From Terriglobus roseus (GTDB lineage Bacteria > Acidobacteriota > Terriglobia > Terriglobales > Acidobacteriaceae): a stretch of DNA of 64,000 nt. The stretch covers positions 2,108,001 through 2,172,000 of the forward strand of contig NZ_FNSD01000001.1 in NCBI RefSeq assembly GCF_900105625.1. Reading direction: 5' to 3'. Shown in pieces: positions 32,324 through 45,983 of this stretch; position 1 is the first letter of the stretch; each line of letters starts with the position of its first letter. Position numbers and translations under genes: made by a program. The notes under the pieces are model-generated. The model saw only the letters and a list, made by a program, of their open reading frames with translations. It did no database searches and had not been told where the DNA came from.

Positions 32324-33367
32324 TCAGGCGCCCAATGGCTGCATGACTGAATCGCTGAACCGCTCCATCTCTTCCAACTGCGGGCTGAACTGCAACAGCA
32401 GCAGGTCCACGCCGGCTTCGGCAAAGCGACCGACCTGATCCTGTACTTCTGCCGGTGTTCCGGTAAGTCCGGAGCGAAGGCCACGGTTGGACACGGAGTA
32501 TTCCTGCAGTGACATGCTCTGTTCGAGCTGCGTGCCCTGCAACCATTGCTGGTAGTTGGCAAAGCCTTTCGCGTTGCTCTTTACATCGGTGATGCGGTCC
32601 ATCTCCGTCTTCACTTCCGCGTCGGAATCCCGCGTGAAGGAGTAGCCTGCGACGCCGAACTGCATGGGTCCTAGGCTGAAGCGCTCCCGGCGCTCGCGCA
32701 TGTCTTCGATCTTCTTTGCAATGTGCTCGGGAGAGTCGCCGTGCATGACATAGGCGTCACACTTCTGTGCGATGAGATTTTTGGCTGCTTCCGACTCTCC
32801 TCCTGCGTAGATAGGCGGACGAGGCGAGCGCACGGGTTTTGGTTGCAGCACGGTGTTTTCCGTCTTGTAGTAGCGGCCATCGTGCGAGTAACTCGGCTGC
32901 GTCCACAGCGCGTTCACCACGTCGAGCCATTCGGAGGTACGACCGTACCGATCGTCGTGCTGCTCGAAATCCACGCCATACATCTTTGCCTCCTCCTGCC
33001 ACCAGGAGGAGACAACATTCAATGCCAGCCGGCCGTTGCTGATGCCGTCGATGTTCGCGGCCTGCTTCGCGAACAGCGCGGGTGAGTGGAAGGTGGGGCG
33101 AACCGCCACCATCAACTCGATCGATTCTGTTACAGCTGCGAGAGCCGCTGCAGTCGACCATGCGTCGAGACTGGGCGCGTCGACACCCTTGATGTCATTC
33201 AGGTTCAGTTCCGCAACAAGGCTTAGATCGAAGCCGATCTGTTCGCTGCGCTGGGCCAGTTTTTTCGTATAGGCCCAGCTTGCCTCCATGCCTTCGTCTT
33301 CCACGTTGCGAAGCCATCCGCCGAAGACCGGCATCCAGTAACCGAAACGCAGCGGTTTAGATGGCAC
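32324..33367 (-). CDS. LLM-class flavin monooxygenase (SfnG/SsuD-like)
   Basis: 347 residues from a GTG at 33367; GAGGAG lies seven bases upstream inside the preceding gene, which it overlaps by 11 bases, so translation is coupled. Bacterial luciferase-like features: RFGYWMPVFGGWLRNVEDEG, SSWWQEEAKMYGVDFEQHDD, DRYGRTSEWLDVVNALW, YKTENTVLQPKPVRSPRPPI and YAGGESEAAKNLIAQ. These best fit reduced-FMN-dependent dimethyl-sulfone or alkanesulfonate monooxygenases, which release sulfite from organosulfur compounds in the cytoplasm. No flavin reductase is in the window. The context (ATP-grasp partner, polycysteine leader, two sulfatases) supports a sulfur role. The substrate is unproven. Confidence 0.8.
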   Translation of the reverse strand: MPSKPLRFGYWMPVFGGWLRNVEDEGMEASWAYTKKLAQRSEQIGFDLSLVAELNLNDIKGVDAPSLDAWSTAAALAAVTESIELMVAVRPTFHSPALFAKQAANIDGISNGRLALNVVSSWWQEEAKMYGVDFEQHDDRYGRTSEWLDVVNALWTQPSYSHDGRYYKTENTVLQPKPVRSPRPPIYAGGESEAAKNLIAQKCDAYVMHGDSPEHIAKKIEDMRERRERFSLGPMQFGVAGYSFTRDSDAEVKTEMDRITDVKSNAKGFANYQQWLQGTQLEQSMSLQEYSVSNRGLRSGLTGTPAEVQDQVGRFAEAGVDLLLLQFSPQLEEMERFSDSVMQPLGA

Positions 33368-34367
33368 GCCGAATCTCCTCTTCAAGAAAGTCCGCGAGGT
33401 TTTCGAAGGGGTTGAAGCCGATGACGCGCGGAGCGTCCGCGACAAAGTTTGAGAGTGCATTCACGTCGTAGTAGTAGATCTCTCCATCGCGATCATCCAC
33501 GATGTACTCGATGCCACCGACGTCGATGCCTGCTGCCTGCATGATGCGCTCGACATTCTGAATGACCTCAGGCGGTGGTGTGTAGCCCTCCACCTTCAGG
33601 CCCGACTTGCCTGCTTCCAGCACGCACGCATTGTCGAAGGTTTCGACCTCCTTGATCTGGCAGATGTCTGCGGGGCACAGGTCAAAGGTTTCGCCGGTAA
33701 GGTGCACGTGGATGGCGTAGAGGTACTTGCCGTTGAGCGTTTCGACGCGGGTGATGTAGCCGCCGCGTGCGGGGACAAATTCCTGCACGAGGGCGATGCT
33801 GTCGTAACCGAGGTCGATCTGATCGTTGTCGACAGCACTCTGCAATTCTTCCTTCGAGTTGAAGCGAACAATGCCCTTACCGCTGCCGCCGATGTTGGCC
33901 TTCACGATGATGGGGTAGCGAAGACCTTCAGCCGCAGCGACGGCCTGGCTTGCATTGTGAATCACGCGCGATGGCAGAAACTTTAGGCCAAGCGAACGCA
34001 GTAGCGAGTGCTGGGCGGCCTTCGAGATTTCGTAGCGGAACGCCTTGGAGCCGTTCAGGACTCGCAAGCCGAGCGACTCAAGATGTTCGAGGTACGCAAG
34101 CGTGTGGAAGATGCCGGATCCGTGGTCACGGCTGTTGGCCGACGGGCTCATGCGGTTGAAGAGCACCTTGAACTTCGGGTCGTTGCCTCCGATGTCATAG
34201 AAGTGGTCGGGGATGAAGGCCTTGCCAAACGGAACGCCGCGGCGCTCCAATTCCGCAAAGACCGGCTTGAACCACTCGGGGTGCTCATACAGAAAGACGA
34301 GCGGTGCAGCCGCTTCCTTCGCGGGTGCATTCTGCGGCAAAACTTCTTCAGCAACCTGGCTCGACAT
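33357..34367 (-). CDS. ATP-grasp (RimK-like) ligase
   Basis: 336 residues. ATP-grasp features: LRSLGLKFLPSRVIHNASQA, PIIVKANIGGSGKGIVRFNS (Gly-rich ATP loop with Lys), ALVQEFVPARGGYITRVETL (hinge), and metal-binding IEYIVDDRDGEIYYYDVNALS (Glu/Asn pair). It most resembles RimK/glutathione-synthetase-like enzymes that join a carboxylate and an amine with ATP, but the acceptor is unknown. It heads a two-gene minus-strand operon with the overlapping flavin monooxygenase. Its upstream region is shared with the divergent polycysteine leader and TonB receptor. One Cys-Cys mini-frame (34398-34421) also sits in its leader. Confidence 0.75.
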   Translation of the reverse strand: MSSQVAEEVLPQNAPAKEAAAPLVFLYEHPEWFKPVFAELERRGVPFGKAFIPDHFYDIGGNDPKFKVLFNRMSPSANSRDHGSGIFHTLAYLEHLESLGLRVLNGSKAFRYEISKAAQHSLLRSLGLKFLPSRVIHNASQAVAAAEGLRYPIIVKANIGGSGKGIVRFNSKEELQSAVDNDQIDLGYDSIALVQEFVPARGGYITRVETLNGKYLYAIHVHLTGETFDLCPADICQIKEVETFDNACVLEAGKSGLKVEGYTPPPEVIQNVERIMQAAGIDVGGIEYIVDDRDGEIYYYDVNALSNFVADAPRVIGFNPFENLADFLEEEIRRAI

Positions 34368-34397
34368 GGGCAGACTCCATCCTCTTTTGACTCGTTA

Positions 34398-34421
34398 TCA
34401 ACAACAGTTTAGACGCTGCAC
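34398..34421 (-). other. candidate short Cys-Cys leader ORF (weak)
   Basis: Minus-strand GTG CAG CGT CTA AAC TGT TGT TGA would encode MQRLNCC, 30 bases before the ATG of the ATP-grasp gene; the frame can be extended upstream to another GTG. Two terminal Cys codons next to sulfur genes are suggestive, but there is no ribosome site, no obvious promoter and no terminator. Confidence 0.2.
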
Positions 34422-34488
34422 CAGCGGTCCAAGCTTCGTGGTTTCGTGCCTGTCTTGCCTGTATTCCGCCACGCGCCGGTTGGACAGG

Positions 34489-34519
34489 TTGGCACACGGG
34501 CGTTGCGCTGATGTAGTAT
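34489..34519 (+). promoter_or_regulatory. possible promoter of the polycysteine leader
   Basis: TTGGCA (34489-34494) and TAGTAT (34514-34519), spaced by 19 bases. A start of transcription about 7 bases after TAGTAT would fall at or next to the ATG at 34527, which would make the message leaderless. The spacing is longer than ideal, so this is tentative. Confidence 0.35.
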
Positions 34520-34526
34520 TTTGCCC

Positions 34527-34595
34527 ATGCAATCTTCCTCGATATCTGAGCGCCTGCTCCGCGAAGACTGTTGCTCCTGTTGTTGTTGTCGATGA
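34527..34595 (+). CDS. polycysteine leader peptide (candidate attenuator)
   Basis: 22 codons: MQSSSISERLLREDCCSCCC, then C, R and TGA. Six of seven codons at positions 15-21 are Cys (TGT/TGC). No ribosome site precedes the ATG and a possible -10 (TAGTAT) ends seven bases before it, so translation may be leaderless. A GC hairpin with T6 follows at 34617-34635, then the TonB receptor at 34721 and a sulfatase. This is the layout of cysteine-responsive leader ORFs (leaderless polycysteine ORFs are described in mycobacteria). A shortage of charged tRNA-Cys would stall the ribosome here and change downstream expression. It is too small for homology; the content and place are the evidence. Confidence 0.6.
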   Translation: MQSSSISERLLREDCCSCCCCR

Positions 34596-34616
34596 CTCCG
34601 CTCGTCCAATAGCAAC

Positions 34617-34635
34617 GCGCTCCGGCGCCTTTTTT
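34617..34635 (+). terminator. candidate attenuator hairpin
   Basis: GCGC-TCCG-GCGC followed by C and six T (34630-34635), 21 bases after the leader stop and 85 bases before the receptor start. The stem is only 4 bp but all G/C. A competing antiterminator fold could not be defined by eye. Confidence 0.4.
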
Positions 34636-34720
34636 CCAAAACTCCAGAACATTTCCAGCAGTGACTGAGTGAACGCGCCCCACGCTGCGTTTTCCCGCTC
34701 CCTGCCATGAGGATCACCTG

Positions 34721-37700
34721 ATGCTGGTTCCATCCCGCAGCGGGGAAGACCGTTGGCTTCGTGCGCGCTCTTCCTTCTTTCGTCCCTCCCATGCCGTCAT
34801 GACCGCCGCACTCTTTGCGGGTGCGAGCTTGCCTCTGCACGCGCAGGTGGACACAGGTTCCCTTGCGGGCACCGTCACCGATACGACCGGGGCGGCGATT
34901 CCCGATGCGGATCTCACGTTGCGGGAAGAGGCAACGGGTGTGACGGCTCGGCTGCATACCGCGAGGGACGGCAGCTTCAACTTCAGCCCGTTGAAGCTGG
35001 GAACTTACACGCTGACGGTAAAGCACGATGGCTTCAAGCAGAGCGTGGCGGAACATCTGAATGTCACGATCCAATCGCGACTTGAGGTACAGCCACATCT
35101 TGAAGTGGGCGGCGCGGGAGAGGTGGTGGAAGTATCGTCCACCAGTCCGCTACTTGAGACGCGATCGTCGTCGGTGCAGCAACTGGTCGATGAGCACACC
35201 ATCAATGCCCTTCCCCTGAATGGTCGCAACGCAACGTTTCTTGCGCAGCTCTCGCCCGGTGTGACCTTTGCACAGAGTGACAGTCGCAACTTGCAGTCGA
35301 GTGGTTCATTTGCTGCGAACGGTGCGCGTCGCACGCAGAATAATTACCTGCTGGATGGCATGGACGATAACGCCGCCATCGCCGACCTGGTGAACCAGGC
35401 GCAGTACGTGGTGATGCCGCCGCCGGATGCGCTGCGCGAATTCACGGTGCAAACGAGCACTTACTCGGCCGAGTTTGGGCACTCCGCAGGTGCGGTGCTC
35501 AACGTCAGTACAAAGGCCGGCGATAACAAATTGCATGGCAACGTGTGGGAGTATCTGCGCAACAGTGCGCTGGATGCGAAGGACTACTTTGTTCTTCCAA
35601 CGCAGAAGAAGCCTGCCTTCCGCCAGAACCAGTTCGGTGGCACGCTGGGCGGCCCCATCGTCATCCCGAAGGTCTACGACGGACGCAACCGGACGTTCTT
35701 CTTTGCGGACTACCAGGGCACACGCATCGCACAGGGCAAGACCTACACCAGCACGGTGCCAACACTGGCGGAGCGGAACAGTGGCTACACCAATCTGCAG
35801 GACCTGATCGCGTTGCAGTCGGGAACACTGACCGATGCGCTGGGGCGCGTGTTTCCAACGGGCACCGTCTTCGATCCCTCCACGACACGCGCTCTGCCCA
35901 CGGGCGGCCTTGACCCGGTGACTGGTCTCCGTGGCACTGCGGGTGCGTATGTGCGTGATCCGTTTTACTCGGGCGGACTAAGCGGTGTGAGTAACTTCAA
36001 CACCACGTCAAATCGTGCGTTGCTGAACCAGCTTCCGGCCGGCCGCATTGCGCCGAATGCTGTTCAGTTACTGAACCTGTATCCAACACCGACCGGCACG
36101 ACGCTGCAGAACAACTATGTCAGCAGCCCCGTCAATGTGACACGGACCGACAGCTTTGATGTGCGCTTCGACGAGACACTCAGTCAGCGCGATTCTGCCT
36201 TCGTGCGCTACAGCTTCGTCAACACATCGCAGGTGGTGCCCAGCCCTTTTCCGGGCATTGCGGATGGCTCGGCATCACGCCCCGGCAACGGTCGCACGCA
36301 GTCGCAGAACATTGCGCTGAGCGAGACACACATCATCACGCCGCGACTGGTGAACGAGGCGCGCGTGGGTTACAGCAAGGTTCGCGATACGCGGCTTCAA
36401 CTGAATGCGAATACGCTGGGCATCCCTGCGCAGTACGGCATCCCGGGTATCCCGCAGATTGCCGGCAATGGTGGCCTTCCCCAGTTCAGCTTCGGACAGT
36501 TAACGGCGCTTGGCTCACCCGGAACTTTGCCGAGCGATAAGTCGAGCAAGGTTCTGCAGTTCACTGAGAATGTGACGATCGATCGCGATCGCCACCAGAT
36601 CCGTGCGGGTGTTGAGTATCAACATGTTGCCTTCCCCACCCTGACCCCGACGACGTCGCGCGGCGCTTTCACAAACAATGGCAGTTACACGTCGATCGTT
36701 GCAACGACGGATGCATCGACAGATCGCGCACAGTTCCTGCTCGCTCCGCGGCCCGTGGTTGCAGGCAGCCTGCAGAGTCTTGGTGGATCAAATGCTGTAT
36801 CTGCATCGAGCTTCTCGCCGATCTTCAAACTTGTGCGGCAGTACGTTGGTGCTTACGTACAGGACAGCTGGAAGGCATCCAGCAACCTGACGCTGAATTA
36901 TGGTGTGCGCTGGGAGTTTCTGGGCATTCCGACAGAGAGTGACGGCCGTTTCGCCAACTTTGTGCCGGCCCAGGCGGGCGACACAAAGGACAACACCTCG
37001 CGCTTTTACATACCGCAGTCGCAGGTTGCGAATGTGCCCGTGGCGTTCCAGAACCTGCTGGCGCAGGACGGCATCGCCTTCACGCCCATTGCGGACAAGG
37101 TGCTGGGCTATGCGCAGAAAGGTAACTTTGCGCCACGGGTTGGCTTCTCATACCAGGCGGATTCGAAGTTAGTCATTCGCGGCGGATACGGCCTGTTCTA
37201 CCAGGGTTATGAAAACCATGGACTCAGCATCAGCCCCTGGGTGAACTATCCCTTCCAGATCACCAGCAGCTACACCGCCGGTAGCTCGGTTGCGCCGGTG
37301 ACTGCAGATAACTCCGTCGGACCTATTTCAAATGGTTTGACGAATGTCCCGCTGACGGCTGCGAATGCGTCCCTGGGTGCGTTGTCGCTGTTTGGTGAGC
37401 CGCGCAATCCGAAGACGACTTACAGCCAGGCCTTTAATCTGCAGGTGCAGTACCAGGTCTCTCCGAACACAATTGCTTACGTTGGTTATGTCGGCAGCAA
37501 CGGCAAGCACATCATGTCGTCGCTTGGGTCCAATGCGGTGAGCTCGATCCTTGCACCAACTGCGAATACCAAGGCGAACTCGTTCTTCAAGGACTTCTCG
37601 GTTGGCGGCAACTATGTCTCGCGCAGCGGGTCGACGAACTACAACTCGCTGCAGACCGGTGTGGAACATCGCTTCAGTCACGGCTTCAGCGTGATCGCGA

Positions 37701-38368
37701 ACTTCACTTACTCCAAGTGCCTTGGCACCGCGCGTGACCTGCTGGATAACGGTGTCGGTGGCTACCGTGCGCCCTATGTTGCCGGGTATGGCATCGGTGC
37801 GGACTATGCGCCATGCGACATTGACGTACGACGCATCCTGCATACCAGCGGCAGTTATGAATTGCCCTTCGGCAAGGGACGCAGCTATGCCACGTCGGGC
37901 GTAGCCTCTGCGCTTGCCGGTGGATGGTCAGTGAACTGGATCTACTCCACGCAGGATGGCCAGCCGTTCTCCGTGGCCTGCACAAGCACGACGGCGGCAG
38001 GGCTTGGCTGCTTTGCGTTGAAGGTGCCCGGCCAGTCGTTGTATGCCAGCGGCAACCGGGTGAAGAACTTCCTGAATCCGGCTGCGTTTGCGAATCCCGC
38101 GGTGGGTAACCTTGGCGGCGCATCGGGACAGGTAAGCGGTCCGGCCTTCCGGCATCTGGATCTTTCGCTCTTCCGCCGCTTCAACCTTGGCGAGGCGCGC
38201 TACTTCGAATTCCGTGCGGAGAGTTTCAATCTGACGAACACACCAAACTTCGCGCAGCCGGGTAGCCTGAACTTCACGTCGCCCACAACGTTTTCTTCCA
38301 TCAGCGCAACGCGCGATAATCCAAACGACCCGCGGGAGCTGCAGGCCAGCCTCAAACTCTTCTTCTAG
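34721..38368 (+). CDS. Oar-like TonB-dependent receptor
   Basis: 1215 residues, usual for the acidobacterial Oar-like class. A signal peptide (AVMTAALFAGASLPLHAQ) is followed by a carboxypeptidase-regulatory-like beta-sandwich (SLAGTVTDTTGAAIPDADLT, GSFNFSPLKLGTYTLTVKHD). Then a plug domain (INALPLNGRNATFLAQLSPG, NNYLLDGMDDNA) and a long outer-membrane beta-barrel with GGTLGGPIVIPK, NRTFFFADYQGTR, and a C-terminal strand ending in F (LQASLKLFF). It would import a large or scarce nutrient across the outer membrane using TonB energy. GAGG lies nine bases upstream of the ATG. It is followed after 48 bases by a sulfatase gene and preceded by the polycysteine leader, so a sulfated glycan or sulfate ester is a sensible substrate. 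Confidence 0.9.
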   Translation: MLVPSRSGEDRWLRARSSFFRPSHAVMTAALFAGASLPLHAQVDTGSLAGTVTDTTGAAIPDADLTLREEATGVTARLHTARDGSFNFSPLKLGTYTLTVKHDGFKQSVAEHLNVTIQSRLEVQPHLEVGGAGEVVEVSSTSPLLETRSSSVQQLVDEHTINALPLNGRNATFLAQLSPGVTFAQSDSRNLQSSGSFAANGARRTQNNYLLDGMDDNAAIADLVNQAQYVVMPPPDALREFTVQTSTYSAEFGHSAGAVLNVSTKAGDNKLHGNVWEYLRNSALDAKDYFVLPTQKKPAFRQNQFGGTLGGPIVIPKVYDGRNRTFFFADYQGTRIAQGKTYTSTVPTLAERNSGYTNLQDLIALQSGTLTDALGRVFPTGTVFDPSTTRALPTGGLDPVTGLRGTAGAYVRDPFYSGGLSGVSNFNTTSNRALLNQLPAGRIAPNAVQLLNLYPTPTGTTLQNNYVSSPVNVTRTDSFDVRFDETLSQRDSAFVRYSFVNTSQVVPSPFPGIADGSASRPGNGRTQSQNIALSETHIITPRLVNEARVGYSKVRDTRLQLNANTLGIPAQYGIPGIPQIAGNGGLPQFSFGQLTALGSPGTLPSDKSSKVLQFTENVTIDRDRHQIRAGVEYQHVAFPTLTPTTSRGAFTNNGSYTSIVATTDASTDRAQFLLAPRPVVAGSLQSLGGSNAVSASSFSPIFKLVRQYVGAYVQDSWKASSNLTLNYGVRWEFLGIPTESDGRFANFVPAQAGDTKDNTSRFYIPQSQVANVPVAFQNLLAQDGIAFTPIADKVLGYAQKGNFAPRVGFSYQADSKLVIRGGYGLFYQGYENHGLSISPWVNYPFQITSSYTAGSSVAPVTADNSVGPISNGLTNVPLTAANASLGALSLFGEPRNPKTTYSQAFNLQVQYQVSPNTIAYVGYVGSNGKHIMSSLGSNAVSSILAPTANTKANSFFKDFSVGGNYVSRSGSTNYNSLQTGVEHRFSHGFSVIANFTYSKCLGTARDLLDNGVGGYRAPYVAGYGIGADYAPCDIDVRRILHTSGSYELPFGKGRSYATSGVASALAGGWSVNWIYSTQDGQPFSVACTSTTAAGLGCFALKVPGQSLYASGNRVKNFLNPAAFANPAVGNLGGASGQVSGPAFRHLDLSLFRRFNLGEARYFEFRAESFNLTNTPNFAQPGSLNFTSPTTFSSISATRDNPNDPRELQASLKLFF

Positions 38369-38416: not shown

Positions 38417-39862
38417 ATGAATCGTAGAGATTTTCTTATGAAGAGCGGCGTCGCAGCTGCGGCCACAGCCTCCTTAGGCAACGGCGCCGTTGCGCAGACT
38501 GCCGTGACGAAGAGCGGCAAGGCGCCGAGCCGGAAGCCGAACATCATCGTTTACCTTTCGGATCAGTTCCGCTGGGACTTTGTCGGCGCAAACGGAGCGA
38601 ATAGCTCCACGAAAACGCCGAACCTGGATGCGATGGCGAAGCGTGGCAAGAACTTCACACATGCGGTCACCAATCAACCGGTGTGCGCCCCGGCGCGATC
38701 CGTTTTGATGACAAGTCGCTTCGCCACGGAGACCAGCGTGTGGCACAACGGTCCCGCGCTCGATAACACGCTGCCGACACTGGCCGGCGAGTTACGCAAA
38801 GCGGGTTACACCTCAAACCTGATTGGTAAGTGGCATCTGGCGCCGTCGGCAGAGAAGGATGGTGGCGGCCCGGGCTATGTGAAGCCCGAGTATCGCGGCG
38901 GCTTTCTTGACCTGTGGGAGGGAGCGAATGCGCTCGAACATACCTCGCATCCGTTTTACGGATCGCTGTTCGATGGGGATGGGAAGGAGATCAAGTTTGA
39001 GGACCAGTACCGTGTAGATTTCCTGACGGATCGAACTGAAAAATTCCTCCGGCAGAAGCATGACAAGCCATTCTTCCTGTTCGTCTCGCAACTTGAGCCC
39101 CACCAGCAGAATGACGAGAACCGCATGGTGGGTCCGAAGGGTTCGGCCGCGCGCTTTATCAATGCGCATGTACCGCCCGATCTGCGCGCGTTGCCGGGTG
39201 ACTGGCATCAGCAGCTCCCGGACTACTACGGCGCCTGCGAAAGCATTGACGCTTCTGTCGGCCGCATTCGCAAGGTGCTGCACGAGACAGGCCAGGCGGA
39301 GAACACTATCTTCGTCTTCATCAGCGATCACGGTTGCCACTTCATGACGCGCAACCAGGAGTACAAACGGTCCACGCACAACAGTTCGGTACGCATTCCA
39401 TTGATCATTGACGGCCCGGGCTTTGAAGGTGCGCAGCAGATTCCCGAGTTGACCGGCATCATCAACGTCGCGCCCTCATTGCTGGAGGCTGTGGGTGTGC
39501 CGGTGCCGAAGACGTGGAAGGGCCGCAGCTTTCTGCCGCTGTTGAATGACACTGCGGCACGCGAGGCGTGGCCGAACAAGGAACTGATCCAGATCAGTGA
39601 GTCAATGACGGCGCGCACGATCAAGACACCGGACTGGACTTACTGCGTTGCAGACATATCCGGTGCGAGGAAGGCTGCGAGTCCGAAGTACCTGGAGTGG
39701 CAGCTCTATGATCAGCGCAATGACCCGCATGAGTTGGTAAACCTTGCAGGTCGCAAGGAGTATCTGGATGTGGCAAAACAGTTGCGCGGCGAGTTAGCCG
39801 AGTTGCTGCAATATGCCGGAGAAGGTACGCCGGAGATCCAGCCGGCGACACTCTATCCGTAG
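38417..39862 (+). CDS. Tat-exported type I sulfatase
   Basis: 481 residues. Twin-arginine signal NRRDFLMKSGVAAAATA. The formylglycine motif CAPAR lies in TNQPVCAPARSVLMTSRFA (CxPxR form). It also has KPNIIVYLSDQFRWDFVGAN, a metal-binding DHG in FISDHGCHFM, KTPNLDAMAKRGKNF and LIGKWHLAP. Activity needs Cys-to-formylglycine conversion; no maturase (FGE or anSME) is in the window. It would release sulfate from esters or glycans in the periplasm or outside. It lies directly behind the TonB receptor gene, with a hairpin terminator after it, so leader, receptor and sulfatase may form one transcript. Confidence 0.9.
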   Translation: MNRRDFLMKSGVAAAATASLGNGAVAQTAVTKSGKAPSRKPNIIVYLSDQFRWDFVGANGANSSTKTPNLDAMAKRGKNFTHAVTNQPVCAPARSVLMTSRFATETSVWHNGPALDNTLPTLAGELRKAGYTSNLIGKWHLAPSAEKDGGGPGYVKPEYRGGFLDLWEGANALEHTSHPFYGSLFDGDGKEIKFEDQYRVDFLTDRTEKFLRQKHDKPFFLFVSQLEPHQQNDENRMVGPKGSAARFINAHVPPDLRALPGDWHQQLPDYYGACESIDASVGRIRKVLHETGQAENTIFVFISDHGCHFMTRNQEYKRSTHNSSVRIPLIIDGPGFEGAQQIPELTGIINVAPSLLEAVGVPVPKTWKGRSFLPLLNDTAAREAWPNKELIQISESMTARTIKTPDWTYCVADISGARKAASPKYLEWQLYDQRNDPHELVNLAGRKEYLDVAKQLRGELAELLQYAGEGTPEIQPATLYP

Positions 39863-39902: not shown

Positions 39903-41330
39903 TTATGCTTCGAGGTCTGCCGCACCAAGCGGCTCGCGCCACGCGTCGCCTGCAGCGAAGCTCTTGCTCCAGGTGTCACATTGCGCACGAAGCTTCGCGA
40001 GCATGCCTTGATGGGACGCATCCACGGCAAGGTTCTTTACTTCGTGCGGATCGTTGCGCAGGTCGTAGATCTCTTCGAAGGGCGCCGCGTTGTCCGTGTA
40101 CTGGATGTACTTCCAGTGCAGCGAGCGAACGGCACGGCTGGAGGGAATCAGGCCCGCGTCCGGGAACTTGTGTTCGACATACCAGGCTCGCTGCGGCCCC
40201 GGCGCTGATCCCCTCATCGTCGACAACAAACTGCGGCCGTGCGTTCCCCCGGGTAAAGGGATACCGGCCAGGTCCAGCAGCGTGGGATGAAGATCGAGGT
40301 TCAGCGTGGGATCGCTGACGCGAACGCCCTTGCGACTGGCCGCGGACCGCGGATCGAAGACGATCAGCGGGATTCTTGTCGGCTCCTCATGTGCGTACCA
40401 TTTCCCTGCGAAGCCGTGCTCGCCATGGTAGACGCCATGGTCCGCGGAATAGAGGATGACGGTATTGTCCGCGAGGCCCTGCGCGGACAGCTCTTTTCGC
40501 AGAGCACCCACGGCATCATCGATGCCGGTGATCAGGGCGTAGTAGCCCTTCATCGTCTCCTGCCGCAGTTTCGTGGTGGTGTAACGGGTGCTCCATCGGC
40601 GGCGATTTTCTGATCGCTGGATGGGCAGCGGAAAGCGCTCAATGTCCGACTCCGGTGCGCCCTGCGGCAGCGGTGGGTTCATGCCCGCATAGCGTGCCAG
40701 CGTTGTGGCGGACGGCAGGTAGGTGCGCGGATCTTCGTCCTGCTCATGTGGCGCCTTGTACGACACGGAGAGGCAGAAGGGTCTGTCGCGCGGCGCCGAG
40801 CGGATGAAGTTCGTCGTCTGTTCAGAGAGAATGTCGGTCAGGTGCGGCCCGGGCTCACCGTTCGGGAAGTACTTGCCCTGCCCGCCGAAACCTTTCCAGA
40901 CGTCGAAGGCGTCGGCTGGCATGGTCGCACCAACGCCGAACTTACCGAGGAAGCCGGTGTAATAGCCGTTGCGTCGCATCTGCCCAAAGTAGGACCGCTG
41001 CACCTGCGCAGGACTAAGCGGTGTGGCGAAGTCGTAGATGCCGTGTGTCGCAGCGTACTGCCCCGTCATGATGCTGGCGCGTGATACGCAGCAGATGGGC
41101 GTGGTGCAGAAGTGGTTGACGAAGTGCAGGCCCTCGCCCGCCATCGCGTCCAGGTGGGGTGTCTTTACGAAGCGATTGCCGGCGCAGCCCAGCGCGTCCG
41201 CACGGTGATCGTCACCCAGCAACAGGACGATGTTTGGTCGCTGTGCTGTGCGAGTCTGCGCTGCCGTTGCCATGTGACTGGATGCGGTAAGCCCCAGCAA
41301 TTCCACAAATTCACGCCGCGTTATGCCCAT
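39903..41330 (-). CDS. second Tat-type sulfatase
   Basis: 475 residues from the ATG at 41330; GGGAGGA lies right before it, and the frame's far upstream ATGs are unlike coding sequence. Tat-like start MGITRREFVELLGL. Sulfatase core: RPNIVLLLGDDHRADALGCA, KTPHLDAMAGEGLHFVNHFC, and the catalytic CCVSRASIMTGQ, where the first Cys of C-x-V-S-R is the formylglycine site and Pro is replaced by Val. YSADHGVYHGEHGFAGKW supplies the DHG. Length and order are normal. It converges on the TonB-linked sulfatase gene and has its own upstream region. Together the two suggest use of more than one sulfate ester. No maturase is visible. Confidence 0.85.
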   Translation of the reverse strand: MGITRREFVELLGLTASSHMATAAQTRTAQRPNIVLLLGDDHRADALGCAGNRFVKTPHLDAMAGEGLHFVNHFCTTPICCVSRASIMTGQYAATHGIYDFATPLSPAQVQRSYFGQMRRNGYYTGFLGKFGVGATMPADAFDVWKGFGGQGKYFPNGEPGPHLTDILSEQTTNFIRSAPRDRPFCLSVSYKAPHEQDEDPRTYLPSATTLARYAGMNPPLPQGAPESDIERFPLPIQRSENRRRWSTRYTTTKLRQETMKGYYALITGIDDAVGALRKELSAQGLADNTVILYSADHGVYHGEHGFAGKWYAHEEPTRIPLIVFDPRSAASRKGVRVSDPTLNLDLHPTLLDLAGIPLPGGTHGRSLLSTMRGSAPGPQRAWYVEHKFPDAGLIPSSRAVRSLHWKYIQYTDNAAPFEEIYDLRNDPHEVKNLAVDASHQGMLAKLRAQCDTWSKSFAAGDAWREPLGAADLEA

Positions 41331-41603
41331 CATTCCTCCCCGGTAACAGCTTATCGGTTTGATACGGACGATAAGTGCCCCGTGGACCAGCATTTTCGAT
41401 GGTTTCGCGTCGTTGTTCTGTGGTTTCCTGCACCAATCACGGTGCATCCACCGGGTGTCTTGAAGTACGTTCGCCGAACCGTTAAGCCCCTGATCCATTG
41501 GGTTGACCATCCGCCAACCACCTCAAACGTGTCATTGCGGTTCCCCACATACCTGCAAAGATTGAGTTCGCGAGAGATCTTTCCAAGAAAGCGTCCCTAA
41601 AGT

Positions 41604-44600
41604 ATGCTGCTCCGCATTTTTCGGATCATCGTTGTCTGCGCCTGTACGTTTGTTCTCTTCCAGTTTGTGAGCCTGTACATGAGCTGGTCGAAGCAGGTGA
41701 TCTTTGGCTGTCTGACCGTGATGGTCGCCATGGCGATCAACCGTGCAGGCAGGAGCCGGCTGCTGACCATCTCCTTAATGCTGCTGTCGATCGCGGCCAC
41801 GCTGCGCTACGGCTGGTGGCGCATACGGATGGTGGTGGGCTACTTCTCGGACGATACGAACCATCGGTTGTCCATCGACGCCGTGTTGATGCTGGTGCTG
41901 CTTTCCGCGGAGATTTACACGGTCGCCATCATGGTGCTGGGTTATATGCAGACCAGCCAGCGACTGGAGCGCAGGCCTGTTCCGCTGCCGGCGGATGAGT
42001 CACTCTGGCCGCATGTGGATGTCCTGATTCCCACCTACAACGAGCCACTTTCGCTGGTGCGCTATACCGCGCTTGCCGCTATCAATATCGATTACCCGCC
42101 AGAGAAGCTGCACGTCTACATCCTGGACGACGGCACACGCAAGGAGTTCCGCGAGTTTTCAGAGCAGGCTGGCGTTGGATATGTTGTCCGGGAAAAACAC
42201 AATCACGCGAAGGCCGGCAACATCAACCATGCGCTGACCCAGATGGATTCGCCGGTGGTCACCATCTTCGATTGTGATCACGTCCCCACGCGTTCCTTCC
42301 TGCAGATGACGCTGGGCTGGTTCCTGGTGGAAGACCGGCTTGCCATGATGCAGACGCCGCACTTCTTCTACTCGCCCGATCCTTTTGAGCGGAACCTGAT
42401 GCAGTACAAAACGATCCCGAATGAGGGCGAACTGTTCTACGGCATCATCCAGGATGGCAACGACCTTTGGAATGCGACGTTCTTCTGCGGCTCCTGCGCA
42501 GTCATTCGGCGCAAGGCACTGGATGAAGTCGGTGGCATTGCGACGGAAACCGTTACAGAAGACGCGCATACCAGCCTGCGCATGCAGAAGAAGGGCTGGA
42601 ACACCGGTTACATGAACGTTGCGCAGGCGGCCGGCCTGGCGACGGAGACACTCGCGGGCCACGTTGGTCAGCGTGTTCGCTGGGCTCGCGGCATGATCCA
42701 GATCCTGCGCACGGACAATCCGTTGCTGGCCACCGGCATGAAGCTGACGCAGCGGCTTTGCTACTTCAACGCCATGATGCACTTCATGTATGCCGTGCCG
42801 CGTTTGATCTTCCTGGTAGCGCCCCTGGCGTACATGCTGGGCGGTCGCACGATTATTCCGGGTTACTGGCTTGCCATTCTCGCGTACGCGCTGCCACATC
42901 TCATCATCTCGAACATGACGAACTCGCGCGTGCAGGGTACGCATCGCCATAGCTTCTGGAATGAGATCTATGAGACGGTGCTGGCGCCTTACATCCTGTT
43001 CCCGACGGTGCTGGCACTAATCAACCCGAAGCTTGGCAGCTTCAATGTTACGGATAAAGGCACTACGCTGGACGAGACGAAGTTTGATCGCAAGATCGCC
43101 GCACCCACCACGTGGCTGTTGCTGCTGAACTTCGCCGGTATCCTGTTCGCGCCGTACCGCTTCTTTGTCCTTGATCCAACGCACCCCGGCGTCGTGCTCA
43201 GCAACCTTTTCTGGATCCTGTTCAACGTCGTCATCCTCGGCGTTGCTGCGGCGGTGGCTCATGAGCAGAAGCAGCGCCGCGCTTCGGTGCGTATCCCGGT
43301 TCGCATCCCGGTGGTTGGCACCACGAGCAGCGGCGTGCAGTTGCTTGGTATGACGGAAGACATGTCCGTCGGTGGGGCCTCGCTCACTCTTTCGGGTGAT
43401 CTGCCGGAGCTGCGGCCGGGTGAGCATGTGAAGCTCACCTTCCCGGTCCAAACCGGTGACCGGACAGTTACAGCCACTGTCATCCGACTGAATTCCGGCA
43501 AGCTGCGCGCGCAGTTCAACAGCCTGACGATTGAAGAAGAAGAAGTGCTGACGTGTGCGCTGTACTCCCGCGCTGACTCATGGGTGAATGTCCGCGCAAA
43601 GGTTGAGCGCGACCGCCCGTTCGTCAGCCTGGGCCGCATCGTTGTACTGTCGCTCACGGGCCTGAAGCAGGTGATGCTGGGTCTGTTGCCGGAGAAGCGC
43701 AGCCCCGCGCCGGTTCCGGCACGCGCTGTTTCCGTCATCCTCCTGGCGCTGGTGTCGCTGGCAGGTCTGCGCATGGGAGCCCAGAACGTCGGGCCTTCGA
43801 TGGCTCCTTTCGCCACTGGGACGACCGTGCCCGGTGGCGTCGCATCCGGCACGCAGATTGCCGGCCCGGAACCGACACACATCCGCTTCAAGGACATGGG
43901 AGTGGCTGGTGAGGCCGAGCTGCGCGGACCGCACTCGTACTACCCGCTCCACTTCATCCTGCCGCACACGCTGATGCCGCGGACCGCAACACTCACCATC
44001 GGCTACCGTTTCAGCGCGGAACTGAGCCACGCCGCGACCGCGTCCATCCGCGTGCTGTTGAACAAGACTCTGATTGCCACCATCACGCCGGACACCGCGG
44101 CGACACGCGCCGGCCATTACTTCATTCTGCCCATCACGGTGCCGACGGACCTGTTGATCCGCGATAACGACCTGACGATGGAGTTCCTTGGGAACGGCGT
44201 TCTGCAGACCAGCGGAAGGGCGCAGGCGGAGGTCCTGGCGCGCATCGCCAATGCTTCCGAGCTGGTTGTTGACGGCGCTGCCCTTCCCTTCCGTACCGAC
44301 ATCTCGCTGCTGCCACTGCCACTGTTTGACAGCGATATGCAGGGCACAACGACGATCCCCTTCGTCTTCCCCACGCAGCCCGATGCCAAGACCGTGCAGG
44401 CCGCAGGCATTGTTGCCTCGTGGTTCGGCATCCTGGCCAGCACTAAGCCCATCCGCTTCCGGGTTGTCGTGGGTGCCGTCCCGCCGGGCAATGCCGTCGT
44501 CTTCGTCAACAAGTCTTCCGGGCAGGCATTCTTCCCGACCACATCGGCTGGCGCTTCGCTGCAGTTGAGTCCCAATCCTTCCGACCCGGATGGCACTGCG

Positions 44601-45983
44601 CTGATCGTCTCTGGCGACAATGGTGATCAGGTCGTCCAGGCCGCACGCGCGCTCTCCCTGCGTGCCAGTCATGTGGATACGGGCGAGCCACAGCAACTGC
44701 TGGGCAATGTGCTGCACGTGGATGACTTCGCACTGCCCACCGAACGGGCCATTGACGACGCACCGCGCTGGGTTCCAACGGATCGCCTTGTACCCCTGAG
44801 CAAGTACATCCCTCAGAACGCTGAGAGCACGGATGGTTCGCGCCCCGTGCCGGTGTACTTCCGTGTGCCGCCGGACCTGTATTACGGCGAAACCGAAAAC
44901 CTGAACCTGCTGCTGCGCTATCGCTATGACGCACACGCCGTCGCCGAAGGGTCGGCGCTGCGTACGTACATCAACGGCACACTGATCAATGAGGCTCCGC
45001 TGCCGGCAGGTGAAAAGCGCGTCGATGGACAGCGTCAGACACTGTTGCCCGTCGCGAACATGCGTCCCTTCACGAACACGCTGCTGTTCAACTTCGACTT
45101 CGTACCCGTGCGCGGCGCGGCGGGCAAGCAGGTGCAGGGCAGCATCCTGAAGAATTCGTCCCTTGACCTGCGCAACCTGAACCACTGGGCCCAACTGCCC
45201 AACCTGGAACTGTTCGCCAACGCGGGGTTCCCGTTCACACAGTTCGCGGACCTGGGGCGCACCGTGGTCGTGCTGCCTCGCCGGCCCAGTGGCGCGGAGA
45301 TCACGCTGTTGCTGGACATGATGGGCCACTTCAGCCGCCAGACAGGCTACCCCGCACTGCGTGTGGAAGTCGCCGGTCCGGACGATCTGGTGCGCGAAGA
45401 CCGGGATTACCTCATCCTTGGAGCCTTCGGCACGCAGCCCGCCTTCGCTGCACTGCATGACAACCTCCCCATTGCGCTGGATGCCGACGGCGTTCACGCC
45501 AAGACCATGGACAACTACCTGACGCGCGCGCAGCGCTGGTGGAACGGCATCACCGGCCAGCCGCTTCCCGATCAGGAGTTTGCACGCGACACAAGCCTGG
45601 CTGATTCGGTGATCGAGGGCATTCAATCGCCTTATGCGTCCGACCGTTCGCTGGTGGCCGTTGCCCTGCGTGACGATAACGTGGAGCCGATATTTGCCGA
45701 CCTGTTCCTGGAGCGGTCGCAGTCGAGCGATATCTCGCGCACGGTAAGTCTTCAGCGCGGCGATCGTTTCCTGTCGTATGAACTGAACGTCGCGCGCTAT
45801 CACGTGGGCAACATCAGCCGGTACACCGCCATGCGCATCTGGCTTACGCAGTACTTCTGGGTACTGCTGGTCTGCGTCGTCTTCTGCACGCTCGTCCTTG
45901 GCCGGTGGCTGCGGGACTCTCTGCAGGCTCGTGCCGATGACCGCCTGAGTGCCGCGAAGAACGAGGCTCATGCGGTCGTCTAA
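41604..45983 (+). CDS. bcsAB: cellulose synthase, BcsA-PilZ-BcsB fusion
   Basis: 1459 residues, an unusual single chain joining two subunits. N-terminal membrane helices; GT2 catalytic core with DDG (175-177), DCD (223-225), FFCGS (293-297), TED (318-320) and QRVRW (356-360); more helices; a PilZ domain with RRASVR (558-563) and DMSVGG (586-591) for cyclic di-GMP. A signal-like helix (about 720) starts the BcsB part, made of carbohydrate-binding and flavodoxin-like repeats, ending in a C-terminal anchor (WVLLVCVVFCTLVLG). It would polymerise UDP-glucose into beta-1,4-glucan and pass it through the membrane. Fused AcsAB occurs in Komagataeibacter. No bcsC, bcsZ or bcsD is next to it here. No good ribosome site precedes 41604. 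Confidence 0.93.
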   Translation: MLLRIFRIIVVCACTFVLFQFVSLYMSWSKQVIFGCLTVMVAMAINRAGRSRLLTISLMLLSIAATLRYGWWRIRMVVGYFSDDTNHRLSIDAVLMLVLLSAEIYTVAIMVLGYMQTSQRLERRPVPLPADESLWPHVDVLIPTYNEPLSLVRYTALAAINIDYPPEKLHVYILDDGTRKEFREFSEQAGVGYVVREKHNHAKAGNINHALTQMDSPVVTIFDCDHVPTRSFLQMTLGWFLVEDRLAMMQTPHFFYSPDPFERNLMQYKTIPNEGELFYGIIQDGNDLWNATFFCGSCAVIRRKALDEVGGIATETVTEDAHTSLRMQKKGWNTGYMNVAQAAGLATETLAGHVGQRVRWARGMIQILRTDNPLLATGMKLTQRLCYFNAMMHFMYAVPRLIFLVAPLAYMLGGRTIIPGYWLAILAYALPHLIISNMTNSRVQGTHRHSFWNEIYETVLAPYILFPTVLALINPKLGSFNVTDKGTTLDETKFDRKIAAPTTWLLLLNFAGILFAPYRFFVLDPTHPGVVLSNLFWILFNVVILGVAAAVAHEQKQRRASVRIPVRIPVVGTTSSGVQLLGMTEDMSVGGASLTLSGDLPELRPGEHVKLTFPVQTGDRTVTATVIRLNSGKLRAQFNSLTIEEEEVLTCALYSRADSWVNVRAKVERDRPFVSLGRIVVLSLTGLKQVMLGLLPEKRSPAPVPARAVSVILLALVSLAGLRMGAQNVGPSMAPFATGTTVPGGVASGTQIAGPEPTHIRFKDMGVAGEAELRGPHSYYPLHFILPHTLMPRTATLTIGYRFSAELSHAATASIRVLLNKTLIATITPDTAATRAGHYFILPITVPTDLLIRDNDLTMEFLGNGVLQTSGRAQAEVLARIANASELVVDGAALPFRTDISLLPLPLFDSDMQGTTTIPFVFPTQPDAKTVQAAGIVASWFGILASTKPIRFRVVVGAVPPGNAVVFVNKSSGQAFFPTTSAGASLQLSPNPSDPDGTALIVSGDNGDQVVQAARALSLRASHVDTGEPQQLLGNVLHVDDFALPTERAIDDAPRWVPTDRLVPLSKYIPQNAESTDGSRPVPVYFRVPPDLYYGETENLNLLLRYRYDAHAVAEGSALRTYINGTLINEAPLPAGEKRVDGQRQTLLPVANMRPFTNTLLFNFDFVPVRGAAGKQVQGSILKNSSLDLRNLNHWAQLPNLELFANAGFPFTQFADLGRTVVVLPRRPSGAEITLLLDMMGHFSRQTGYPALRVEVAGPDDLVREDRDYLILGAFGTQPAFAALHDNLPIALDADGVHAKTMDNYLTRAQRWWNGITGQPLPDQEFARDTSLADSVIEGIQSPYASDRSLVAVALRDDNVEPIFADLFLERSQSSDISRTVSLQRGDRFLSYELNVARYHVGNISRYTAMRIWLTQYFWVLLVCVVFCTLVLGRWLRDSLQARADDRLSAAKNEAHAVV

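Follow-up and report, generated by a model that had tools for sequence, protein, structure and literature searches.

A polycysteine leader ORF ahead of a TonB-type receptor-sulfatase operon, a probable ribosome-based cysteine sensor in Acidobacteriaceae

What is the role of a very short open reading frame, crowded with cysteine codons near its end, that lies ahead of the genes for a TonB-type receptor and a sulfatase? The question is raised by one locus of a 64-kb stretch of DNA (64,000 nucleotides), referred to here as the window, from a soil acidobacterium of the same genus as Terriglobus roseus. The initial annotation had described a 22-codon ORF with six cysteines in positions 15 to 21, placed as a leader before a TonB receptor-sulfatase operon. 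Translation of 34527-34595 gave MQSSSISERLLREDCCSCCCCR followed by a stop codon, with cysteine at codons 15, 16 and 18 to 21, which confirms the first part. The operon is borne out by the Pfam assignments, by the common strand and by the gap of 48 nt that separates the receptor gene (domains OMP_b-brl_4 and CarboxypepD_reg) from the sulfatase gene. The features of the locus are collected in Table 1.

Table 1. Features of the leader region and of the operon that follows it, in positions of the window.
Feature	Positions	Strand	Basis or remark
Possible -35, TTGGCA	34489..34494	+	19 bp before the -10
-10-like hexamer, TAGTAT	34514..34519	+	7 nt before the leader ATG
Polycysteine leader ORF	34527..34595	+	22 codons and stop; kept upstream of orthologous receptors
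Cysteine cluster CCSCCCC, codons 15-21	34569..34589	+	Common part of the diverged orthologous peptides
Hairpin 1	34579..34616	+	z -4.14; 0/200 shuffles fold as well
Hairpin 2, GCGC-UCCG-GCGC, then C and T6; weak terminator candidate	34617..34635	+	z -1.60; 17/200 shuffles as stable
Likely Shine-Dalgarno sequence of the receptor gene, GAGG	34709..34712	+	-
TonB-type outer-membrane receptor, 1215 aa, 4 Cys and 5 Met	34721..38368	+	Pfam PF25183, PF13620; composition
Sulfatase, 481 aa, CAPAR motif at residue 90	38417..39862	+	Pfam PF00884; motif

The window has no second short ORF with six cysteines within seven codons, and none appeared in ten first-order Markov shuffles of the same DNA. A search of NCBIfam with the 22-residue peptide returned no family up to E=0.001, peptides this short being easily missed. 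Rfam held no curated element for positions 34300-34900, where the single match up to E=1 was a snoRNA model on the minus strand, at 19.9 bits against a gathering score of 85.

A lack of conservation of the cysteine run had been named beforehand as the first of several findings that would refute the leader. The receptor sequence, used as query against 398 genomes of the family, led to 30 loci. Twenty-four of them, the window included, showed at least 57% identity and had usable upstream DNA; L147 and L159, cut by contig ends, and four loci of 45-50% identity were left out. Under one rule (an ATG-started ORF of 7 to 45 codons, with at least three Cys in five codons near its end, within the 450 nt before the aligned receptor), a Cys-clustered short ORF was present at 18 of the 24 loci, one of which (L143) is atypical because its ORF lies further upstream. 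When the same rule was applied to the antisense strand of these 24 regions it found no ORF, every other residue scored 0 to 2 in the sense direction, and 20 shuffles gave 0 to 1. The presence of a polycysteine ORF upstream of these receptor-sulfatase genes is far from chance. The orthologous leader peptides, such as MQSSWISDRAFSEDCQLCCCCR in Terriglobus roseus, MRLSSVELVRLFRQDCCLCCCR in T. albidus and MAFSGLCPVAPRSGCCCCFCCR in Granulicella sp. S156 (for which a longer form from an earlier ATG is possible), diverge from each other, and the terminal cysteine cluster is the part that is kept. Direct DNA matches to 34480-34740 among 200 family genomes were full length in the window's own genome only, and the short, weak matches led to other classes of leaders, which are described below.

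A second scan, of named genomes, gave 80 receptor loci, 77 of them with enough upstream DNA. A strict form of the leader was found before 13 of the 20 receptors that are at least 54% identical to that of the window and before none of 57 less similar paralogues (Fisher p 4e-10, the loci being related to each other). Two of the seven strict misses, L195 and L203, show an ORF with a -10 at a gap of 6-7 nt that ends in two adjacent cysteines; a relaxed rule of at least two Cys in the last four codons gave 14 of 20 receptors of at least 54% identity and none of the 57 more distant ones. The cysteine run is kept across genera in both scans, and the leader thus withstood the first refuting test. Concerning the second gene of the operon, the receptors of T. 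roseus (G201), T. albidus (G148) and G128 are followed by a counterpart of the window sulfatase that is 83-91% identical to it. Among the 13 strict loci of the named-genome scan, a sulfatase at least 62% identical to that of the window starts 20-151 nt beyond the aligned receptor in ten; the other three have a distant sulfatase (L201, 30%), none (L204) or a contig edge (L211). The receptor-sulfatase pair does not depend on the leader, since at L195, L198, L200 and L208 a sulfatase also comes after a receptor that has no strict leader.

The receptors themselves were compared in their sulfur content. A low proportion of Cys and Met is a known pattern in proteins made under sulfur limitation. The comparison comprised 27 distinct orthologues, after removal of near-identical ones; the leader-bearing set includes two assigned by the relaxed rule, L140 and L142 being equated with the genomes of L195 and L203. 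The mean Cys+Met content was 0.65% in receptors with a leader (n=22) and 1.21% in those without (n=5; p=0.002), a difference that weakens to p=0.08 under phylogenetic contrasts. Less similar receptors showed a mean of 1.53% (n=55), and the nearest of them, 40-53% identical, a mean of 1.14% (n=12). The low content of the leader-bearing receptors therefore supports, without proving, their use in sulfur shortage.

The TAGTAT that had been reported seven bases before the leader ATG is indeed located there. Where the window has the possible -35 TTGGCA, T. roseus and G290 carry TTGGCT, at a spacing of 17 bp. The promoter scan of the window listed no sigma-70-type site at the leader because the -35 spacer is 19 bp. 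We collected by hand 22 leaders of five classes, several of them closely related. In 15 of the 22, the window's included, a TATAAT-like hexamer has its end 6-7 nt from the ATG; at every other gap from 0 to 39 nt the hexamer occurs in at most one leader. Class B leaders conform to TTGAC(C/G/T)-17-TA(T/C)nnT-6/7-ATG and the class E leader to TTGACA-17-TATGGT-6-ATG, while the -10 motif is absent from class C leaders by the gap criterion. As judged from sequence, this register is the one that a leaderless mRNA would need. The earlier proposal of a possible leaderless start is partly supported: the -10 is suitably placed in the Terriglobus relatives, but the spacing of 6-7 nt is found in 7 of the 20 named-genome orthologues of at least 54% identity and in none of those at 54-59%.

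The cysteine codons also appear to take part in RNA structure. In hairpin 1, Cys codons at 34579-34588 are predicted to pair with 34607-34616, and 34591-34595 with 34602-34606, with the leader stop codon inside the stem. The fold is common to the window, T. roseus, RYN_15, G290 and dw_53, where 75 of 75 cells of the alignment are paired and two pairs are changed on both sides; slid controls reached 25-73% paired, and the support of the five-sequence alignment against shuffles is modest (48/500). In the T. albidus group hairpin 1 is not the local fold. At five of the 18 positive loci the Cys run pairs with RNA downstream of it better than shuffled sequences do (p<0.05), and the alignment of the group of 56-58% identity was too poor for folding.

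Taken by analogy, the region is quite probably a cis-acting, ribosome-based cysteine sensor, similar to the polycysteine attenuators of mycobacteria but found in Acidobacteriaceae, and on the best account of the locus it would control the uptake and desulfation of sulfate esters. Transcription would probably start at or beside the leader ATG, to judge from the position of the -10, and the polycysteine ORF would be translated as a leaderless message. When charged tRNA-Cys is scarce, the ribosome would pause in the cysteine cluster, as the analogy suggests, and could keep the Cys codons out of hairpin 1, a role that we infer from a pairing predicted in the window and conserved in five relatives. 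With hairpin 1 blocked, expression of the receptor-sulfatase operon would rise, and its gene content suggests that the operon would bring in sulfate esters and free their sulfur. The last step could be intrinsic termination, Rho or translation initiation.

A sensor of this kind could act on translation of the receptor, either by masking of its ribosome-binding site or by coupling or re-initiation, as reported for mycobacteria. We regard this form of the last step as a real possibility, somewhat short of even. It is consistent with the similar lengths of the spacers between leader stop and receptor Shine-Dalgarno sequence (91-144 nt in the 18 loci) and with a Shine-Dalgarno sequence that is mostly paired in predicted folds, and it matches the scheme given in PMC13236596, where occlusion of the Shine-Dalgarno sequence is relieved by stalling on an upstream ORF. 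However, when ribosome stalling was modelled in 13 loci by folding the RNA with the stalled stretch of the leader taken out, the Shine-Dalgarno sequence was not consistently opened.

The same sensor as a transcription attenuator, in which stalling on the Cys run decides whether hairpin 2 and its T-run terminate transcription, is a doubtful form of the last step. The GC hairpin followed by T6 was found where it had been noted before (GCGC-TCCG-GCGC at 34617-34628, then C, and T6 at 34630-34635). Hairpins 1 and 2 abut, with T6 directly after, and T. roseus keeps a hairpin in which the UCCG loop is unchanged and the stem has become GUGC/GCAC, which would favour termination at this place. Yet the stem has four pairs, so that the terminator scan of the window, which wants at least five, does not list it, and T. 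roseus lacks the U-run. Furthermore, terminator-like sites occur in 6 of the 18 leader-receptor spacers against 2.6 expected, and a conserved intrinsic terminator between leader and operon, such as those of trp/his-type systems, was not found in these spacers. The intrinsic attenuator of the initial annotation is thus not a conserved part of the arrangement.

That the ORF encodes a functional Cys-rich peptide, binding metal or thiols, and is no leader at all, we find very unlikely. The cysteines are the conserved part, as such a peptide would have it, but the remainder of the peptide diverges, every locus found has the ORF a little way upstream of the operon, and the Cys codons take part in a conserved RNA hairpin and are biased to TGT (TGT:TGC is 79:16 in leaders versus 14:32 in eight window genes). 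A chance run of TGY codons in non-coding DNA is hardly credible in view of the residue, strand, shuffle and paralogue controls, the promoter register and the conservation across genera, even if TGY runs are common, there being 111 TGYTGYTGYTGY places in the window's own genome, mostly in coding DNA.

Leader-peptide attenuators of the trp/his type combine a leader rich in the sensed residue with alternative hairpins nearby, and they carry ribosome-binding sites and strong terminators. The acidobacterial region resembles them in the first two respects, whereas a ribosome-binding site and a strong terminator are not seen here as conserved features. Polycysteine-encoding leaderless short ORFs of mycobacteria were reportedly treated by Canestrari et al. 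in 2020. Such ORFs are described in PMC9031893, PMC13236596 and PMC9094748. The leaders found here share with them a run of adjacent Cys codons towards the end of a short ORF, a promoter that in part of the loci would suit a leaderless start, a conserved position as first gene of sulfur-linked operons and the occurrence of several loci per genus. They differ in their host family, in their targets, which are TonB-type receptors and sulfatases, and in that, for part of the group, a conserved hairpin has the Cys codons as one of its arms; the comparison is one of layout, not of sequence. The Cys-rich small ORFs upstream of mycobacterial cysA2 and other genes, as presented by Shell et al. 2015 (PMC4633059), also have a C-terminal cluster of Cys codons and a conserved position upstream of an operon; 70S occupancy by ribosome profiling is given for them, while the present leader is known from sequence alone. 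No acidobacterial polycysteine leader appeared in the literature searched, which consisted of titles and the openings of abstracts. If the sensor reading is correct, polycysteine-leader cysteine sensing exists outside Actinobacteria, in an abundant soil phylum, and it controls outer-membrane uptake and desulfation, a direct connection between the supply of an amino acid and the use of organic sulfate esters. It would then also be a means to pick the likely sulfur-scavenging receptors among the many TonB-type receptors of acidobacteria, and the leaders are short enough to be tested as reporter constructs, in a genus of which strains are in culture.

Cys leaders were found at other places as well. 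Class C leaders (MLLSP...CCCC(L/R) or FCCCR) precede a sulfatase-receptor operon in T. roseus, G180, G031, G095 and the window's own genome, which thus carries a second leader, ahead of another such operon (near 550 kb of C1). In G031 the class C operon continues with a PPIase gene and a gene with an FGE-sulfatase domain. Of 28 class C sulfatase loci, 6 carry a Cys ORF; this set alone is not distinctive, since the rule gives similarly high counts for Arg (8) and Ser (5). Class B leaders, MHIASRLCCCCR or near variants, are located about 105 nt before the gene of an AhpC/TSA-ResA-like protein in G031, G095 (two copies) and G180. In class D, known from G031, G095 and G180, two Cys ORFs stand in tandem ahead of another receptor. 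Class E is a single leader in T. albidus, where the next ORF, of 278 aa, has no family match and a long RHS-repeat/CBM60 protein is encoded some 900 nt further on. We lean slightly towards the view that Acidobacteriaceae have their own cysteine leader network, possibly evolved independently, in which unlinked sulfate-ester and thiol operons would each have a leaderless polycysteine leader, the Cys codons would serve in part of the group both as sensor and as 5' arm of a switch hairpin, and the controlled receptors would have lost Cys and Met, as expected when sulfur is scarce.

Pattern searches gave the following counts. CCCR-stop occurred at 105 places in 19 genomes of the genus, against 51 for the reversed control; follow-up covered 30 loci and 40 stretches (three of these chosen for other places or for places already covered), and many places inside long open frames were set aside by eye. 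In the window's own genome, CCC-x-stop occurred at 31 places against 16 in the control, with two convincing leaders among the 30 examined and a third candidate, MALFRVPTSGPNTNDKYLEQCSDVCCCQ, at L281. Across the class, CCCCR-stop was matched in 77 of 299 genomes, and no leaderless leader was seen among the 30 loci listed, all from other families of the class. A possible leaderless Cys ORF, MSDFLKSVASCCCTCCCCACVCAGAGRRLT, follows TAGAAT in the family genome G190 (L041, minus strand, near 1590).

Upstream of the window leader, the opposite strand encodes an ATP-grasp protein and an SfnG-like flavin monooxygenase. The initial annotation had also named flavin-monooxygenase genes as places to search for Cys leaders; none that is convincing precedes this divergent pair, upstream of which a minus-strand frame ends in Cys-Cys-stop and lacks a convincing start. 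The two proteins had no tblastn match in the T. roseus, T. albidus and G128 loci.

Some minor observations were made along the way. The longest ORFs of the divergent pair (32324-34367, minus strand) overlap by about 100 nt. The sulfatase-family proteins at 39903-41510 (minus strand) and at 3398-5005 of L125 lack the [CS]xPxR active-site motif by a simple pattern, unlike the sulfatase starting at 38417 with its CAPAR. In T. albidus an amino-acid permease gene (L123, 7826-9160) comes after the receptor-sulfatase pair on the same strand. The tandem Cys ORFs that precede one receptor in three species (L040, 1348-1520; L104; L111) read, for example, MVIRSFAACTCCCR and, as the second, ...ANPCCCCR; they may be a pair of sensors acting in series, or a single leader together with a remnant. 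In T. roseus G201, two places about 460 kb apart (L165/L192 and L095/L096) are identical over the stretches compared, the start of the class C operon included, which suggests a large duplication or an assembly effect. Finally, a single ORF of 1459 aa at 41604-45983 joins the catalytic part of a cellulose synthase, with PilZ, to a BcsB part, an apparent BcsA-BcsB fusion.
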